Shown: positions 10,619 through 56,399 of the stretch, in pieces
Layout of the letters: each line of letters begins with the position of its first letter
Numbering within the stretch: position 1 is the stretch's first letter
Assembly (NCBI GenBank): GCA_017528825.1
Contig: JAFXOI010000003.1
Coordinates: forward strand, 62,001-126,000
DNA from: Elusimicrobiaceae bacterium
GTDB lineage: Bacteria; Elusimicrobiota; Elusimicrobia; Elusimicrobiales; Elusimicrobiaceae
Direction: 5' to 3'
Length of the DNA stretch: 64,000 bases
Notes under the pieces: model-generated
What the model was told of the DNA's origin: nothing
Databases searched by the model: none
The model's input: the letters and a program-made list of their open reading frames with translations, nothing else
Position numbers and translations under genes: made by a program

Positions 10619-11935
10619 ATGCGTGTAGGCAAGACAAAATTATATAATACTCTTATGGGACAGTTTTTATTGCTGTTAACCAATTTGGCGTTTCCGTTTG
10701 CGGCGTTATGGGTACTACTCGGGTTTGTTTTTTCACCTCGGCGCCGCGTGCTTAAGACCTTAAAGCAAGAGCTTCGGGAACGTTTTGCATTGGAGCCGGT
10801 AGATATGATTCCGCAAGGCGCCTTGTGGATTCATTGCGCTAGCGTGGGAGAGGTGCGTTCGGTAGCCGGCTTGATTGATGAATTGAAAAATTTTTACCAA
10901 AAGGAAGTAATGGTCACCACCAGTACGGCCGCTGGGCGAGCAGAAGCGGCCAAAAATCCGGCTATTACCAAAGCATTGCTGGCACCCCTTGATTTTTATC
11001 CTTTTGTTCGGCGTTTTATTGCCCATGCTCAACCGTATCGGTTATTTGTAGTAGAGCGGGAGATTTGGCCCAATATGTTGGCGGCGGCTCATCGGGCACA
11101 GGTGCCGGTGATGTTGTTGAATGCCCGTATTTCCCGTAAAAGTACGCGGGCATACCGATGGGTGCGGCCCTTGTTTGCTAAGCTCTTTGGACAAGTGGTG
11201 CTGGCTACTATGCAAGAGCAGGATGCCGCTGAGCGTTACAGTAGTTTAGGATTGCCTGCCGACAGAATTGTCGTGTGCGGAAATGTAAAGTACGACACCT
11301 TACATGATCAGCCGGCTAAGTTAAAAGAAGCCCGCGCGCTTATCGAACAGTTAGGTTGGCAAAATAGCCCTGTTTTAGTGTGTGGCAGTACGCATCCGCT
11401 AGAAGAAGAAATTATCTTGCAATCTTTGCCGGACTGGAATAAACAAGGCGTAAAAGTGATTTTTGCTCCGCGTCATTTAGAGCGGAAAGAAGAAATTAAA
11501 GCCGCTTTACAGGCAAGGCCGTTTGCTTTTGGATTTGTCAGCGAGGGTAATTTCCCCGCTAATTGTGCCATCGTGTGCGCGGATACAATGGGGTTTTTGC
11601 AATCTTTGTATGCTTGTGCGACCCTGACCTTTGTGGGGGGAAGTATTGCTCCGCGCGGTGCGCATAATTTGTTAGAACCGGCCATTTTGAAAAAAGTGGT
11701 ATTATTTGGGAAGAGCTTTTATAATACGCCCGATACAGCACATGCCTTGCTGTCTTGTGGCGGGGGAATTTTAGTAGATAAAGAGAATTTGAAAGATACC
11801 GTACTGCGTTTGCTCAAAGATCCGGCCGCTTTGGACAATATGGCTACCAAAGCTCGTCAGACGGCCCTCGATTTTAAGGGAGCGACGCAAAAAATTATGG
11901 AGGCAGTAAAAAATTATGAGCGAAAATCAGCCTAA
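10619..11935 (+). CDS. waaA: 3-deoxy-D-manno-octulosonic acid (Kdo) transferase
   Basis: A GT30-family enzyme that adds Kdo to lipid IVA at the cytoplasmic face of the inner membrane. An N-terminal membrane anchor (LLLLTNLAFPFAALWVLLGF) is followed by WIHCASVGEVRS and TTSTAAGR, hallmark WaaA motifs. FVVEREIWPNM and the C-terminal GGSIAPRGAHNLLEPA donor-binding segment are present. Length (about 438) matches the family. The start could be 10619 or ATG 10655, which removes 12 residues; neither has a well-spaced Shine-Dalgarno. The stop overlaps the start of the next glycosyltransferase by 20 bases, indicating coupled translation and a shared LPS core role. Confidence 0.93.
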   Translation: MRVGKTKLYNTLMGQFLLLLTNLAFPFAALWVLLGFVFSPRRRVLKTLKQELRERFALEPVDMIPQGALWIHCASVGEVRSVAGLIDELKNFYQKEVMVTTSTAAGRAEAAKNPAITKALLAPLDFYPFVRRFIAHAQPYRLFVVEREIWPNMLAAAHRAQVPVMLLNARISRKSTRAYRWVRPLFAKLFGQVVLATMQEQDAAERYSSLGLPADRIVVCGNVKYDTLHDQPAKLKEARALIEQLGWQNSPVLVCGSTHPLEEEIILQSLPDWNKQGVKVIFAPRHLERKEEIKAALQARPFAFGFVSEGNFPANCAIVCADTMGFLQSLYACATLTFVGGSIAPRGAHNLLEPAILKKVVLFGKSFYNTPDTAHALLSCGGGILVDKENLKDTVLRLLKDPAALDNMATKARQTALDFKGATQKIMEAVKNYERKSA

Positions 11936-13448
11936 AATTTTAGTAGTTCGTTTGTCTTCGTTAGGAGATATTGTTTTATCTTCTGCTGTGTTCAAAAACT
12001 TGAAAGCCAAATGGCCTAAGAGCCATATCACATTGTTAGTCAAACCCCAGTTTGCTCAAGTGCTGGCGGGGCACCCCGATATTGACGAAATTATGGTCGC
12101 CAAGAAGGGTTTATGGGGTAATGTCCGTCAGGTGCGGGCCGGCCATTTTACCCACTTTTTGGATTTGCACTCTACGTTCAAAACCATGTTAATCGGAGCG
12201 TTTAGCCAAATTCCGAACCGTTTGCGTTACAGCAAAAACCCAATTGCTCGTCGTCTATATGTGAAATTTCGCAAAAATTCGCCGGTACTGGAAAAACATA
12301 CCTTGCAACGCTACTTAGAGGTGTTAGCAGGGTGGGATGTACCTATAAAATACACGGCGCCGGAACTGGGAGACTGGGCTTATAAAAATGTGGAGCTGGA
12401 AGGAAAGAAAGTAAATAAAATCGGTATTTTCCAAACTTCCTTTATTGGCGATAGCGTACTTACCACTCCGCTGATCCAAAAAACGGCCAAATTATTCCCG
12501 GAAGCTAAAATTGTGGTCATCACTCGTCCGCAAACGGAAGATATTTTCCGTCCGATGCCGGAAGTGGACGAAATTATCCTAAATGATAAAAAGGGACTTA
12601 ATAAAATCTTCGGTGTATGGAAAACGGCTCAAGCCATTAAAGCTAGCGGTATTGATATTTTGCTGGTACCGCATCGCAGTTTTAGAAGTGCGTTTATTGC
12701 GTGGCTGAGTGAAGTGCCTATCCGGATTGGTTTTACCTCCAGCGAAGGATGGTTCCTGTACACAAAAACAGTTCCGTTTAGCTGGATGATTCACGATGCG
12801 GAGCGCAATTTATCTTTGTTGCATGGAATTGTGAAAGAGAATTTCAAAGCTGAAAAATTAAACATGCAATATGCGCCCAGTGCCGAAGAGAACGTGGCGC
12901 GTTTGATGAAAGATTTTAATTTGGAAGGCAAAACATTAATTGGTATTCACCCGGGGTCTGCTTGGGCTACCAAATGCTGGCCGTTTGAAAATTTTGTCGA
13001 ACTGATTAGCCGTATTGAAACGGAATTGCACTTGCAAACGGTTATTATCGGCGGTGGCCAAAAAGATGCGGACTTGGGCGAAAAGTTATGCCAGCTTTCC
13101 CAAGGTCATGCCGCTAACCTGTGCGGTAAGACCAGCTTGGCCGATTTGATGGCACTGATGGGCCATTTCAAATTATTTATTACCAATGATTCCGGTCCGA
13201 TGCATATTGCTACTGCTTTTAATGTGCCCACGCTGGCTATTTTCGGCCCGACCACTAAGGAATTAGGCTTTTTCCCGTATGGGCATGGGCATCGCGTGCT
13301 AGAGGTGAAAGGTTTGGATTGCCGGCCTTGCGCCTTACATGGCGGCAACAAATGTCCGCAAGGTCATTTCAAATGCATGCGTTTAATTACGGTAGATAAC
13401 GTATTTAACAATGTAAAAGAAATGTTGCATGAAAACAAAGTAATTTAA
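11916..13448 (+). CDS. Two-headed GT9 (heptosyltransferase-family) glycosyltransferase
   Basis: 510 residues against about 330-350 for ordinary WaaC/WaaF/WaaQ. The GT9 N-terminal Rossmann half appears twice: ILVVRLSSLGDIVLSSAV at residues 8-25, with DLHSTFKT later, and IGIFQTSFIGDSVLTTPL near residue 171, with VPHRSFRS. Only one C-terminal donor-binding half follows, with GIHPGSAWATKCWP, TNDSGPMHIA and a Cys-rich CRPCALHGGNKCPQGHFKCM end. It probably adds a heptose or related sugar to the Kdo-lipid A made by the preceding waaA gene, which it overlaps. The first half may be a remnant or a second acceptor module. The terminator at 13468 ends the operon. Confidence 0.85.
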   Translation: MSENQPKILVVRLSSLGDIVLSSAVFKNLKAKWPKSHITLLVKPQFAQVLAGHPDIDEIMVAKKGLWGNVRQVRAGHFTHFLDLHSTFKTMLIGAFSQIPNRLRYSKNPIARRLYVKFRKNSPVLEKHTLQRYLEVLAGWDVPIKYTAPELGDWAYKNVELEGKKVNKIGIFQTSFIGDSVLTTPLIQKTAKLFPEAKIVVITRPQTEDIFRPMPEVDEIILNDKKGLNKIFGVWKTAQAIKASGIDILLVPHRSFRSAFIAWLSEVPIRIGFTSSEGWFLYTKTVPFSWMIHDAERNLSLLHGIVKENFKAEKLNMQYAPSAEENVARLMKDFNLEGKTLIGIHPGSAWATKCWPFENFVELISRIETELHLQTVIIGGGQKDADLGEKLCQLSQGHAANLCGKTSLADLMALMGHFKLFITNDSGPMHIATAFNVPTLAIFGPTTKELGFFPYGHGHRVLEVKGLDCRPCALHGGNKCPQGHFKCMRLITVDNVFNNVKEMLHENKVI

Positions 13449-13467
13449 CGTTTGGATAGAAAACACG

Positions 13468-13502
13468 ATCCCCCAGCTATTGAGGCCGGGGGATTTTTTT
13501 GT
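13468..13502 (+). terminator. Intrinsic terminator after the comF-waaA-GT9 operon
   Basis: ATCCCCC (13468-13474) pairs with GGGGGAT (13488-13494) and is followed by a T-run. Confidence 0.8.
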
Positions 13503-13542
13503 TTTCTTTTTGGCCGTTTTTTCGTCATCCCTGCCCTCCGTC

Positions 13543-13567
13543 ATCCCCGAGATTTGTAGTCGGGGAT
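13543..13567 (+). repeat. Single REP-like palindrome, 25 bases
   Basis: cgtc flank, ATCCCCGA, 9-nt loop, TCGGGGAT. Same architecture as the units at 1383 and 1499 but with a different stem sequence, so the fold rather than the sequence is conserved. Confidence 0.75.
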
Positions 13568-13609
13568 CTATTTCCTTTGGCTGTTTTGTCGTCGAGAAAT
13601 AAAAAAGAC

Positions 13610-13637
13610 TTGACATCGTTTTTTTTTTTAGTATAAT
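13610..13637 (+). promoter_or_regulatory. Promoter of pilin gene at 13788
   Basis: TTGACA (13610-13615) and TATAAT (13632-13637) are separated by a 16-base, almost pure T spacer. It is preceded by CGTCGAGAAAT 20 bases upstream of the -35. The same arrangement occurs at 17647-17694 before another pilin. Confidence 0.85.
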
Positions 13638-13685
13638 TTAAAAAATTAATTCCCGGCCGTGCGTTATTTTGCAGAAAACACACAC

Positions 13686-13766
13686 GTCATCTTGCAGTGT
13701 TGTAATGCGGGATATAAGTAGTTTTGCAACAACATTATACCCCGCACAGAAACCTTGCGGGGTGAC
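13686..13766 (+). repeat. Inverted pair of REP-like palindromes in the 5' UTR of a pilin
   Basis: Forward unit ATCTTGCA/TGCGGGAT (13689-13713, two G-U pairs) and reverse unit ACCCCGCA/TGCGGGGT (13739-13763) are each 25 bases with 9-nt loops, flanked by gtc and gac. They lie between the promoter and the ribosome site, so they will be transcribed as RNA hairpins. Confidence 0.8.
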
Positions 13767-13787
13767 GGCAGGGAAAAAGGAGGTTGT

Positions 13788-14270
13788 ATGAAAAAAGGAT
13801 TCACGCTTATTGAGTTATTAGTAGTTGTATTAATTATCGGTATTTTATCGGCTATTGCGTTGCCGCAGTATCAGAAAGCAGTAGAAAAATCACGCATTTC
13901 CGAAGCTCGTATTATGCTTAATTCTCTATATAAAAACTATCAATTGTGTGTATTACAAAACGGAATGGATGATAATTCTTGTACGTATGAAGATGAAACA
14001 ACAAATTTATTTACTCAAATGGACATTGGTTTTCCCGGACCTATAACTACAAATTGTATGTTGGATGAAGATGTTATATGTTATAACACAAAAGATTGGA
14101 GTTTTGGACTTGATGATGACCATAGTTATATATTTGCGGAACGTATCAAAAGCGAAAGTATTCCGTATTGGTTGCTTTTACAACTTTCATCGGGAGAGAT
14201 AACCTGTGGAAACAATGATGAAAGTGTCTGTGAAAGTATTTGTGGTGGCGATCAGTGTGTATTAAACTAG
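13788..14270 (+). CDS. PilE-like type IV pilin
   Basis: 160 residues. A short leader MKKG is followed by [14 protein letters not shown] with Glu5, then [12 protein letters not shown], which closely matches the pilins at 1331 and 17798. The variable C-terminal domain has eight Cys residues, including C-x3-C and C-x4-C clusters at the end. The start at 13788 follows AAGGAGG; an in-frame start 33 bases upstream would give an unnatural leader. Such subunits are inserted in the inner membrane, trimmed by a prepilin peptidase (not encoded here) and assembled into pili or pseudopili. It is monocistronic, with its own promoter and terminator. Its specific role is unknown. Confidence 0.9.
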
Positions 14271-41152: not shown

Positions 41153-41180
41153 AGTAGGTCGGGTGTGAACCCGACCTACT
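41153..41180 (+). terminator. Strong hairpin after the Cys-rich secreted protein
   Basis: AGTAGGTCGGGT/ACCCGACCTACT, perfect 12-bp stem with a 4-base loop. No T-run follows, so it may act in RNA stability or be a repeat rather than a true terminator. Confidence 0.5.
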
Positions 41181-41238
41181 TGCTAGTATCGCTCCGCCCC
41201 TCTTCTTGCGTTATTTCTCATTGTCTTTTCTCCACGTC

Positions 41239-41263
41239 ATCCAGAGGGGTAGTAACCTAGGAT
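41239..41263 (+). repeat. Degenerate REP-like palindrome
   Basis: cgtc flank, then ATCC...GGAT at the ends of a 25-base unit and a ctc flank, as in the other copies, but the middle of the stem is mismatched. Confidence 0.5.
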
Positions 41264-53646: not shown

Positions 53647-54156
53647 ATGTATATTCAAGAGAGAAAAGGTTTTACGCTGATTGAAGTGTTAACGGTCGTG
53701 TTAATTGGGGCATTGGTTGTGCTTTTTGCCATTCCGAATTATCGCAAAAGCCAAGATAAAAACCGGTATTTGACGGCTAGCGGTGTGTTAATGGAACTGG
53801 GAAATGGCGTGAATATTGTGCGAGAAGATTTCCCGGGAGTTGATTTAACGTCTGGTAGCGTAACGCGAGGAGCAGTTTTTTATAGTGGGACATCACCTTC
53901 TTTTGAAGTTGGCTCTGGTGAAAGCGTAACAGGGACCACCGTCATTTCATGGCTGGTGTATAATAATTATTTGACCTCATTTCCCATTGATAATTCCGGG
54001 CAGTATTTAGGATATCGTTTCGCCATCAGCACAACCGGAGCTGCCAATTGTTCTTGTAATACGGGAGAAGCGGTCGCTTGTATGACAGGTTCCAACGCTA
54101 ACAGTTCCTATACTTGTGCATGGGTTGACAAATCCGGTATTTTGCACCATAATTAA
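53647..54156 (+). CDS. Pilin-like subunit 1 of the operon
   Basis: 169 residues. MYIQERKG^FTLIEVLTVV with Glu5, hydrophobic helix to AIPNYRKSQ, then a beta domain with four Cys (CSC, C, C). Major-pilin-like in signal and in position just after pilC. Which of the subunits is the major one cannot be told from sequence. Confidence 0.88.
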   Translation: MYIQERKGFTLIEVLTVVLIGALVVLFAIPNYRKSQDKNRYLTASGVLMELGNGVNIVREDFPGVDLTSGSVTRGAVFYSGTSPSFEVGSGESVTGTTVISWLVYNNYLTSFPIDNSGQYLGYRFAISTTGAANCSCNTGEAVACMTGSNANSSYTCAWVDKSGILHHN

Positions 54157-54169
54157 AAGAGGAGACATT

Positions 54170-54643
54170 ATGCGCAACGATAAGGGTTTTACATTAGTTG
54201 AATTGCTGGTAGCCGCAACGATTGTGGGTATTTTGGCTGTGTTTGTAACCATTCAGCTCCGCAATAGTGCTGCAGAAACTCGTTGGACGCAGGCCAAAGC
54301 TAAAGCGGATGCGTTGGCTTTTGCGGCGCATAGAGCCAAAGTAGATTATCCTTCTTTATCTTTTAGCGATACGCCGCTTGGAGGTTATGTAAAAGCAAGT
54401 TGTGGGTATCGTCCGCGCATGAATAGTACAGTACAAGCTACCACGCTGATTGATTGTGGATACTTGGAAAATTCTGGTTGGACAGATCGCTATTTTACAT
54501 ACTATGTTTGTAATAATGGGTGTGGTCCGGATGATGCCTATTTGGCATTAGTACAAGTGAATAGTGCAGCCCCATTGCCCAGTCAATATAAGACGTATAA
54601 ATACTATGCACACCCCAGCCGTGACGGGTTTGAGCAACATTGA
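54170..54643 (+). CDS. Pilin-like subunit 2 of the operon
   Basis: 157 residues. MRNDKG^FTLVELLVAATIVG with Glu5; the C-terminal domain has Cys in CGYRPRMN, DCGYLENSGW and CNNGCGPDD. Start 54170 behind GGAG. Type IV pilin or GspH-like pseudopilin; role not resolved. Confidence 0.86.
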   Translation: MRNDKGFTLVELLVAATIVGILAVFVTIQLRNSAAETRWTQAKAKADALAFAAHRAKVDYPSLSFSDTPLGGYVKASCGYRPRMNSTVQATTLIDCGYLENSGWTDRYFTYYVCNNGCGPDDAYLALVQVNSAAPLPSQYKTYKYYAHPSRDGFEQH

Positions 54644-54653
54644 GGAAAAATAT

Positions 54654-55226
54654 ATGAGAAGAAATACTATTTATCCGTGCGATAAGGGTTTCACATTGAT
54701 GGAAATCCTGTTTGTGGTGTTGGTGATCGCTTTGGTAATTAGTTTTGCGATGCCGGCTATCCGTTCCGTGCGGTTTGATATCAAAAATGCGCGGGCGAAA
54801 GCGGCTTTGCGCAAAGTGGCTGAGGCTCGTCGTTCGTATTATGAATATAGCCGCGGTGGAAATTTTCCAACCACTTCTTTTGAAATTGGTTCGGCTCAAA
54901 GCTGGAGCAGCGATACTTGTACAAATCCGGCGGCATCGGGCGTTCCGGGGACTTCTATATCGCCGGAAGATGCCAGCCAGTTGTTTGCGTGTGGCTTTTT
55001 AAATTGGAAAGATTTTGCGGGGTTACCGTATCGATTCTATATTTGCAATGCTAATGATACGAGCGAATCCTCCTGTCAGCTGGCTGGTCAAACGCTTTCT
55101 GTCAGTGCTACGGCCGCCGGCGATAGCAGTGCTTTTGCCAAGCAGGTGGGTTCTAAATATATGAGCCCATATAAGATGTATATTTTAAAAGACAGCATGG
55201 AAGTGCACGATACAGAAGAGGAATAA
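54654..55226 (+). CDS. Pilin-like subunit 3 of the operon
   Basis: 190 residues. An 11-residue leader before KG^FTLMEILFVVLVIAL with Glu5; C-terminal domain with Cys pairs (DTCTNPAA, FACGFL, ICNAND, SSCQLAG). The start at 54654 (after GAGG) is chosen over in-frame codons within the previous gene. Minor pilin candidate. Confidence 0.86.
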   Translation: MRRNTIYPCDKGFTLMEILFVVLVIALVISFAMPAIRSVRFDIKNARAKAALRKVAEARRSYYEYSRGGNFPTTSFEIGSAQSWSSDTCTNPAASGVPGTSISPEDASQLFACGFLNWKDFAGLPYRFYICNANDTSESSCQLAGQTLSVSATAAGDSSAFAKQVGSKYMSPYKMYILKDSMEVHDTEEE

Positions 55227-55233
55227 GAGACAT

Positions 55234-55719
55234 ATGAAGAAATATTTTTTACAAAATAAGAAAGGGGTAACCCTATTGGAAGGATTGATTGCTTTGTTGT
55301 TACTTGCGCTGATTGCCACGGGTACTTTTGGTGTACTGCTGTCTACTTCTCGGCGCAGTACGCAGCCGGATATTCGAGAAGAAATGATTTTGGCGGTAGA
55401 GCGTGCGATGGATAAAATGCAGGTATATGTGTACCCAACCGATTATGCATACGGAAGTCTTCCGGCTGATGTGAAAGGGGGATTATGCGGCGATTCTAAT
55501 CCGTTGGCAGATCAGGAGCATGACATCGCTTGCTTGTTACCTCCCATTTGTAACGCAAGTAATTCTTATTTTCATTATACGATAACACAAGTACCTGGAG
55601 AGAATATGCCGCATGAAAAAATACGTTTTGAAGATTTAGGATCAGGAACGTTGTATTATCCGGTTCGCTCTCCTTATTCTATTAAGTTTGACATACAGTG
55701 TAACGGGTTTAAACTATGA
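55234..55719 (+). CDS. Pilin-like subunit 4 (PilV/GspI-like)
   Basis: 161 residues. KKG^VTLLEGLIALLLLALIA with Glu5 at the fifth mature position; the LLEGLIAL variant is typical of PilV/GspI minor pilins. Cys in GLCGDSN, IACLL and ICNAS. It overlaps the next gene by 4 bases. Confidence 0.84.
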   Translation: MKKYFLQNKKGVTLLEGLIALLLLALIATGTFGVLLSTSRRSTQPDIREEMILAVERAMDKMQVYVYPTDYAYGSLPADVKGGLCGDSNPLADQEHDIACLLPPICNASNSYFHYTITQVPGENMPHEKIRFEDLGSGTLYYPVRSPYSIKFDIQCNGFKL

Positions 55720-56399
55720 AAAAAAATAGTAACTCTTTTTTAATTAGTGGGCGTCGCGGTTTTACACTAACAGAGGTGCTGTTAGCCGTGATGATAGTTG
55801 GGCTAATCGGAGTGGCTTTGGCCTCTTTGACTCGTTCTGCCGCGCGGGAAGGGGGCGTCGGTCGCAGTAAAATATTGTTGCGTAATAACTTAGCCTCTTT
55901 TGTGCGTACCTTGCGTAAGGACTTGGCTTCTGCCACGGTGGTAAATGCGACGGGAATTATAACGGCCAGCAATTCCACTCCTATCAAACTCTTAGAAATT
56001 GGACAAAATGTGCAAGCTGACGGAGTAACTCCGGTGGCGATGGATCCAAATGCCCCGGGAGCCAAAAAAATTACCTACTGCTTTGTGCGTGGGAATAATA
56101 ATACCAATATTGTACCTTCCTCAGCTTATCGCGGAGGAGCTATTTATCGCGTAAAGGGAGATACTTATTCCTGCCCTGACTCAGCCATGACATCATCCAA
56201 TTTGGTATTGAATAATGTGAAATATATTCCGCAGGGGACTACTACTCCCAATTATCCGGTACCGTTGTTTGTACGGGATAATTTCAGTCGAGCAGATTCT
56301 CCGAATTTGTTAACCGTACGCTTGATTACGGAACTAGATAGTACCCCTATCATTAATGATGTGATTAACGAAACATTTTCTGCCCCGATGGGCTATTAA
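55716..56399 (+). CDS. Pilin-like subunit 5 (PilW/GspJ-like)
   Basis: 227 residues, the largest pilin of the operon. RRG^FTLTEVLLAVMIVGLIG with Glu5, then a larger C-terminal domain, as in GspJ/PilW minor pilins. ATGA overlap with the preceding gene. It probably forms part of a priming tip complex with its neighbours; this is by analogy. Confidence 0.84.
   Translation: MKKNSNSFLISGRRGFTLTEVLLAVMIVGLIGVALASLTRSAAREGGVGRSKILLRNNLASFVRTLRKDLASATVVNATGIITASNSTPIKLLEIGQNVQADGVTPVAMDPNAPGAKKITYCFVRGNNNTNIVPSSAYRGGAIYRVKGDTYSCPDSAMTSSNLVLNNVKYIPQGTTTPNYPVPLFVRDNFSRADSPNLLTVRLITELDSTPIINDVINETFSAPMGY

Follow-up and report, generated by a model that had tools for sequence, protein, structure and literature searches.

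The window, by which we mean the whole stretch of 64,000 nucleotides that was analysed, lies in contig 3 of a draft Elusimicrobiaceae genome of 1.53 Mb (41 contigs, 95.2% complete). Two of its type IV pilin-like genes are accompanied by small hairpin repeats resembling repetitive extragenic palindromes (REPs), several of which form inverted pairs (REPINs). The first gene (1331–2131, + strand) has its N_methyl match, marking the pilin N-terminus, at about 1586–1651, and GGAG at 1321–1324. One REP copy with a D-type stem, ATTCCCGA, lies inside the leader ORF (1380–1407, +) and makes a first REPIN with a copy of stem GTCCTGAG (1442–1469, −). An A-type copy in the leader, ATGCTGAG (1496–1523, +), makes a second REPIN with a copy that has stem GCCCTGAA and a 10-nt loop (1547–1575, −). 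This second REPIN is common to the pilin paralogs at C4:9250 and C5:79946 (contig and position). Because the start codon and its GGAG are located 5′ of all four copies, the REPs would be read in frame and contribute to a leader of 86 residues.

The second gene (13788–14270, +) has a short leader and lies 3′ of a conserved gene at 11916–13448. By inspection, it has a promoter-like TTGACA-N16-TATAAT motif at 13610–13637 (+). A promoter-upstream module occurs twice, as a 5′ copy, TTTGGCCGTTTTTTCGTC (13502–13526, +), which ends at a CGTC where the REP block starts, and as a second copy, CTTTGGCTGTTTTGTCGTCGAG (13575–13596, +). A REP with an E-type stem, ATCCCCGA, is found 5′ of the promoter (13540–13567, +), with a half-unit in front of it. 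A further REPIN occupies the 5′ UTR and consists of a copy whose stem, ATCTTGCA/TGCGGGAT, contains two wobbles (13686–13713, +) and a copy with stem ACCCCGCA (13739–13766, −). Paralogs at C25:9811 and C22:9997 have this REPIN in common. The eighth copy is degenerate and intergenic, with no adjoining pilin (41236–41263, +).

Additional pilin-like genes and palindromes occur in the window. Five tandem pilin-like genes at 53647–56399 (N_methyl matches at about 53662–55820) belong to a small homology group of their own that has no REPs. An imperfect palindrome, AGGTCGGGTGTGAACCCGACCT, occupies 41157–41180, and locus L162 has a similar one. Tandem half-units, which have the 5′ GTCATYCC and lack the 3′ arm, precede some full REPs, both in the window (13502–13540) and at loci L039, L017 and L034.

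A hairpin family with changing stems

A mechanical scan of the window found six perfect Watson-Crick stems of 8 bp beside GTC (1380+, 1469−, 1496+, 1575−, 13540+ and 13766−). The loop is 9 nt long in five of them and 10 nt in one (1575−). The five compare with 0.07 per dinucleotide shuffle, and the one with 0.03. The copy at 13686 was missed by a scan allowing one mismatch because of its two T-G wobbles. The copy at 41236 was accepted by a covariance model, yet it forms no such hairpin by energy. The initial annotation of the window had listed eight hairpins with an 8-bp stem, a 9- to 10-nt loop and a GTC foot. These are indeed present, six of them perfect and two weaker, and they are enriched over shuffled sequence, as its reading implied. 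Its statement that the stem sequences differ by compensating changes also holds: both sides change in seven of the eight stem pairs, and 96.9% of cells are paired versus 72.6% in shuffles, with none of 500 shuffles reaching as high a value.

With the covariance model built from the window copies, we found at least 51 copies in the genome at E ≤ 1, a count that includes the eight window copies used for training and is a lower bound because 150 of 275 candidates were scored. A second model, based on 52 genome matches, has 97.6% of cells paired versus 73.5% in shuffles. Covariation is thus seen both in the window and genome-wide, in agreement with the proposal that a REP-like element is kept in its folded form.

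The foot is NGTC in 48 of the 51 copies (TGTC 26, CGTC 13, GGTC 7, AGTC 2), which upholds the reported gtc/gac flanks, and YGTC in 39. The model stem has 8 bp and starts with AT in 38 copies and with AC in eight. The loop has the consensus RNGTYKTWR and measures 9 nt in 47 copies, 10 nt in three and 8 nt in one. The tail is CTC in 30 of 51 copies and ATA in 12. Stem subtypes include ATGCTGAG, ATCCTGAR, ATCCCGCA/ACCCCGCA, ATTCCCGA and ATCCCCGA. The D-type unit is ATTCCCGA-N9-TCGGGAAT, and six of 51 copies have that 5′ stem. Copies had been described as single or as inverted pairs, and among 21 neighbouring pairs within 120 nt we counted 16 in +− arrangement, so that the feet point outward, four in −+ and one in ++. 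The window hairpins are REP-like elements that often occur as REPINs.

Among 60 genomes of the family, 27 have a match at E ≤ 0.001, with at least one to at least 110 copies, and 33 have no match. These counts are lower bounds, because filtering was stricter here and no more than 113 candidates per genome were scored. Such patchy spread suggests mobile DNA.

Distribution around pilin genes

The genome has 115 N_methyl matches in its 1.53 Mb, 113 of them over the cut-off. Pilin expansion is extreme in a relative of about 1.5 Mb (G012) as well, with 238 candidates, all 150 scored of which match. A location near pilin genes had been suspected from the window, and it is strongly marked: 22 of 26 REP clusters in the genome occur at most 600 bp 5′ of a pilin N-terminus, and none is in the 3′ control zone. 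Even if intergenic DNA, with its share of 17%, is taken as the baseline, the bias has p of about 1e-13. Both this share and the roughly 15 independent insertions are hand tallies, and two of the binomials rest on them. Insertions are fewer than clusters because several of the pilins with REPs arose from one another by duplication. A 23rd cluster, at the end of contig 39, occupies a promoter region of pilin type, and the contig probably ends before its gene is reached. The clusters away from pilins are at C20:20952, C41:103728 and window position 41236.

Relatives exhibit a similar association. In genome G042, 38 of 65 clusters are 5′ of a pilin, versus four of 65 in the 3′ control. In G012, the figure is at least 36 of 105, from a pilin list that is incomplete since 150 of 238 candidates were scored. 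We therefore sampled 20 regions from the other 69 clusters of G012, and 14 have a pilin directly 3′ of the REP, two end at a contig edge and four have no pilin 3′ of the REP. When the best loci of other genomes were inspected, a pilin directly followed the REP on its 3′ side in 13 of 28. In this genome, 74 loci around the remaining pilins gave one weak match to the repeat model.

At pilins, REPs are found 5′ of the promoter, in the interval from promoter to Shine-Dalgarno sequence or inside the leader. Another, longer palindrome, MITE-like and about 90 nt in length (GTCTGCAAA...GTCTGTTTGATA...TATCAAACAG...TTTGCAGA), also occurs upstream of the promoters in one set of pilins (C1:147746, C9:294, C17:38471, C35:11441 and the end of C39; loci L032, L033, L046, L039 and L022).

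Six pilins in this genome have REPs in the leader: C3:63586 (window 1331), C3:17324, C4:9250, C5:79946, C5:82795 and C35:67374. In these, a ribosome site was found only 5′ of the REPs. In all six leaders, the REP run stays open in the frame of the pilin, and four of nine non-coding multi-REP runs have one open frame of three. Among pilins of relatives with a REP at most 500 nt upstream, 12 of 24 have an in-frame REP after a start with a Shine-Dalgarno sequence. Leader insertions are few in G042 (three of 20 sampled regions). We infer from the reading frames that the in-frame REPs would be translated into extra leader residues. The leader of type IV prepilins is expected to be removed by prepilin peptidase. 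Among open-licence papers, we found no description of this repeat or of REPs in prepilin leaders.

The repeats could be regulatory hairpins in pilin promoters and 5′ UTRs, selected for expression control at the RNA or DNA level. Their UTR and promoter-proximal positions, their covarying stems and a near-identical module beside 14 promoters in G012 are consistent with such a role. However, position and orientation vary widely, some copies are in coding leaders or far 5′ of promoters, and a REP is missing at 91 of the 113 pilins. Moreover, a search for Rfam families in the window matched two tRNAs and no other family. We regard regulatory hairpins as quite improbable.

Candidate movers and related repeats

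The initial annotation had combined a reading of the hairpins as REP elements with the proposal that RAYT (TnpA-REP) transposases move them. The first part stands, as the repeats are REP-like, spread over the genome and close to pilins, but our results do not support the second. Pairing as in REPINs and the hairpin geometry do suit RAYT-mobilised elements. However, the foot is NGTC rather than GTAG, and the expected Y1/HUH gene was not found: Y1_Tnp (PF01797) has no match in this 95.2%-complete draft, while five of 14 control genomes match. Y1_Tnp occurs in 17 of 60 family genomes and in seven of 36 genus members surveyed (this genome included). The Y1 genes of the genus are open frames of IS200 size, at most 182 aa, and occur in three of the 10 genus genomes with at least 10 copies of the repeat. 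Conversely, the genomes with Y1 frames of 220–288 aa (G001, G003 and G039) have no repeat match, and no repeat copy was found in the surroundings of Y1 genes in relatives (18 regions). Movement by RAYT is therefore very improbable.

Since REPs and dRS3 elements can serve as targets of IS110/Piv-type enzymes, a transposase of this type was also tried as the mover. The corresponding domain (PF01548) has weak matches in five of 60 genomes, none over the cut-off, and the candidate was rejected. A phage link was likewise dropped, as the leader array has no DNA match and viral contigs contain no relative of the pilin. Open-licence literature since 2013 yielded no named mover for CGTC-tagged REPs.

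The closest resemblance is to the CGTC-tagged REP superfamily, which is defined by a CGTC-like foot (TGTC and CCTC variants are allowed) and a stem of 8–9 bp with AT at positions 1 and 2 (PMC3733652). In both the superfamily and our repeat, the 8-bp stem starts with AT, one end carries a (C/T)GTC foot that is not paired, inverted dimers of two unequal partners are frequent, and some copies lie inside ORFs. Head-to-head dimers are also common in the superfamily, and outward feet, as in 16 of the 21 close pairs here, may be a comparable arrangement. Di Nocera 2013 reported no transposase associated with CGTC repeats (PMC3733652), and our searches of the Y1 and IS110 families agree with the lack of a dedicated enzyme. 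Thus, the new repeat has the foot (YGTC in 39 of 51 copies), the 8-bp stem with AT first (38 of 51) and the lack of an associated transposase that characterise the superfamily. By contrast, families CGTC-1 to CGTC-4 have loops of 4–5 nt (some other lengths are noted) and mostly CCA tails (PMC3733652), whereas our repeat has a 9-nt loop and a CTC or ATA tail. Because loop length and tail differ from those of the four named families, we do not file the repeat under any of them, and view it as a new family within or beside the superfamily. The host phylum is also outside the five listed in that work, and the bias to one gene family is a further difference. Although the superfamily is already known, the host-gene bias of this repeat is striking.

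Several better-studied repeats offer partial parallels. dRS3 is a member of CGTC-1 (PMC3733652), its ATTCCC...GGGAAT resembles our D-type stem, and its NIME arrays surround pilin cassettes (pilS) and pilC (PMC3898611). However, dRS3 comprises about 700 copies of 20 bp with 6-bp terminal repeats and an 8-nt centre, it forms intergenic arrays with RS elements, and it is a target of the Nf1 phage integrase (PMC3898611). The unit ATTCCC(N8)GGGAAT does not occur in our repeat, as the D-type has a 9-nt centre. RPE-4 and RPE-6 of Rickettsia are CGTC-type repeats that occur in frame inside coding genes, although RPE elements enter many unrelated genes (PMC3733652), whereas the in-frame copies seen here are in prepilin leaders. 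RAYT REPINs of Pseudomonas and others also consist of two inverted REPs as a unit, but have a GTAG/GTGG foot and a RAYT gene flanked by REPs (PMC3116915), both of which are absent here. Judged by analogy, dRS3/NIME around pilS would be the best functional parallel and the RPE elements the best coding parallel.

The silent pilS loci of Neisseria meningitidis lie within NIME arrays, and dRS3-mediated recombination has been suggested there (PMC3898611). By extension, our REPs might be shared sequences that promote exchange between pilin loci. In line with this idea, REPs that are 5′ of promoters sit at the 5′ edge of cassette homology. In G012 the promoter/REP region and the N-terminus are conserved, and the pilin bodies hardly exceed what shuffling gives (57% versus 55%). 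However, REPs are missing from most pilins of this genome and from 33 of 60 family genomes, and no recombinant pair was demonstrated. We consider a recombination module improbable.

Probable mobility and a possible CGTC address

We assign a probability of roughly 0.6 to the reading that the repeats are non-autonomous mobile REPINs, moved by something other than RAYT, and that they build up where a rapidly duplicating pilin family can spare sequence, at the 5′ ends of its genes. Pilin paralogs without a REP can be aligned to both flanks of single REPs, and thus represent empty sites. Examples are C1:93438 and C5:7263, with inserts of about 50 nt. In G042, a REPIN and its inner flanks are enclosed by inverted GGTTTGGCGGC ends (loci L260–L268). 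Among six sampled copies with both ends, this REPIN has either orientation at different pilins (four versus two). We view it as a candidate for a longer mobile unit. No clear target-site duplication was found at REP insertions, nor was REPIN insertion polymorphism seen between strains.

It is also possible, if unlikely, that hitchhiking alone explains the pattern. In this scenario, a few old REP insertions in pilin promoters were multiplied by cassette duplication, and the REPs are now immobile. One homology group does hold 74 of the 113 pilin upstream regions, including 21 of the 22 REP-bearing ones, and there are three sets of pilins that share one REPIN by descent. Pilin genes also come and go at one orthologous place. 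The genome collection contains 56 loci related to the conserved gene 5′ of the second window pilin, and the neighbouring pilin (window 13449–14270, compared with L169–L224) is absent in most relatives. A same-orientation pilin within 300 nt of the conserved gene is found only at L180 and L192. We had looked there for orthologous empty REP sites across species, but because the pilin itself is mostly absent, this comparison reveals pilin turnover rather than REP turnover.

The G012 loci bear on both readings. Sixteen loci, which were selected because they scored equally, agree in both their REP and its promoter context, as hitchhiking would predict, although the identity of the REP itself reflects this choice. 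Two of these were set aside (L243, which stops short of the gene, and L244, which lacks a pilin motif within 450 nt). Across the other 14, identity of the REP module is 96%, whereas third codon positions at the same N-terminal residue agree at 58%. Therefore, even with loci chosen for equal REP scores, either the module arose after these genes diverged or it is under tight constraint, which is unexpected if REPs were simply duplicated along with their genes. Many G012 copies look like a fixed promoter module rather than fresh insertions. Hitchhiking alone also does not account for the G042 REPIN in both orientations, for the stem types that differ between paralogs at a given position, or for the intact flanks of REP-free paralogs.

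For mobile REPINs, what is recognised would be the hairpin in its folded state, with a GTC foot and the conserved loop. The stem sequence could then drift freely as long as pairing holds, which is the pattern of covariation observed. Movement would depend on an enzyme acting in trans, presumably other than RAYT. REPs would collect at pilin 5′ ends because insertions are tolerated in the promoter or UTR and in a removable leader, and because duplicating, spreading pilin cassettes copy their REPs. In-frame copies would become extra leader residues, given the open frame and the Shine-Dalgarno sequence found only 5′ of the REPs.

A more speculative idea concerns the choice of site. REP-free pilin promoters, in this and related species, have TTTTYTCGTCG just 5′ of the −35 box, and the REP block starts at the promoter-element CGTC in C3:75791 (window 13502–13596), C9:5820 and most of the G012 group. 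At C3:75791 and C9:5820, a copy of the promoter-upstream module flanks the REP block on each side. The foot could conceivably be an address, such that an HUH-like enzyme guides CGTC-footed hairpins to the CGTC of pilin promoters, but we hold this idea to be doubtful. A general CGTC target rule was rejected, as the junction is at the promoter CGTC in only two loci of this genome and the aligned UTR and leader insertions do not fit it.

If the address idea were true, pilin promoters would be a self-made landing field and the removable leader a safe harbour, mobile DNA would have supplied part of the prepilin leaders, and the CGTC REPs, which have no known mover, would gain a testable target rule. 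Regardless, the genus allows closely related species to be compared in one gene context, since their copy numbers run from zero to over 100 and many paralogs that lack REPs provide empty sites. The repeat would be a case of small mobile palindromes that lengthen leader peptides within a protein family. Since a tie between dRS3, a CGTC-1 element, and pilin cassettes was noted in meningococci, a general link between this class of repeats and pilin variation may now be tested.
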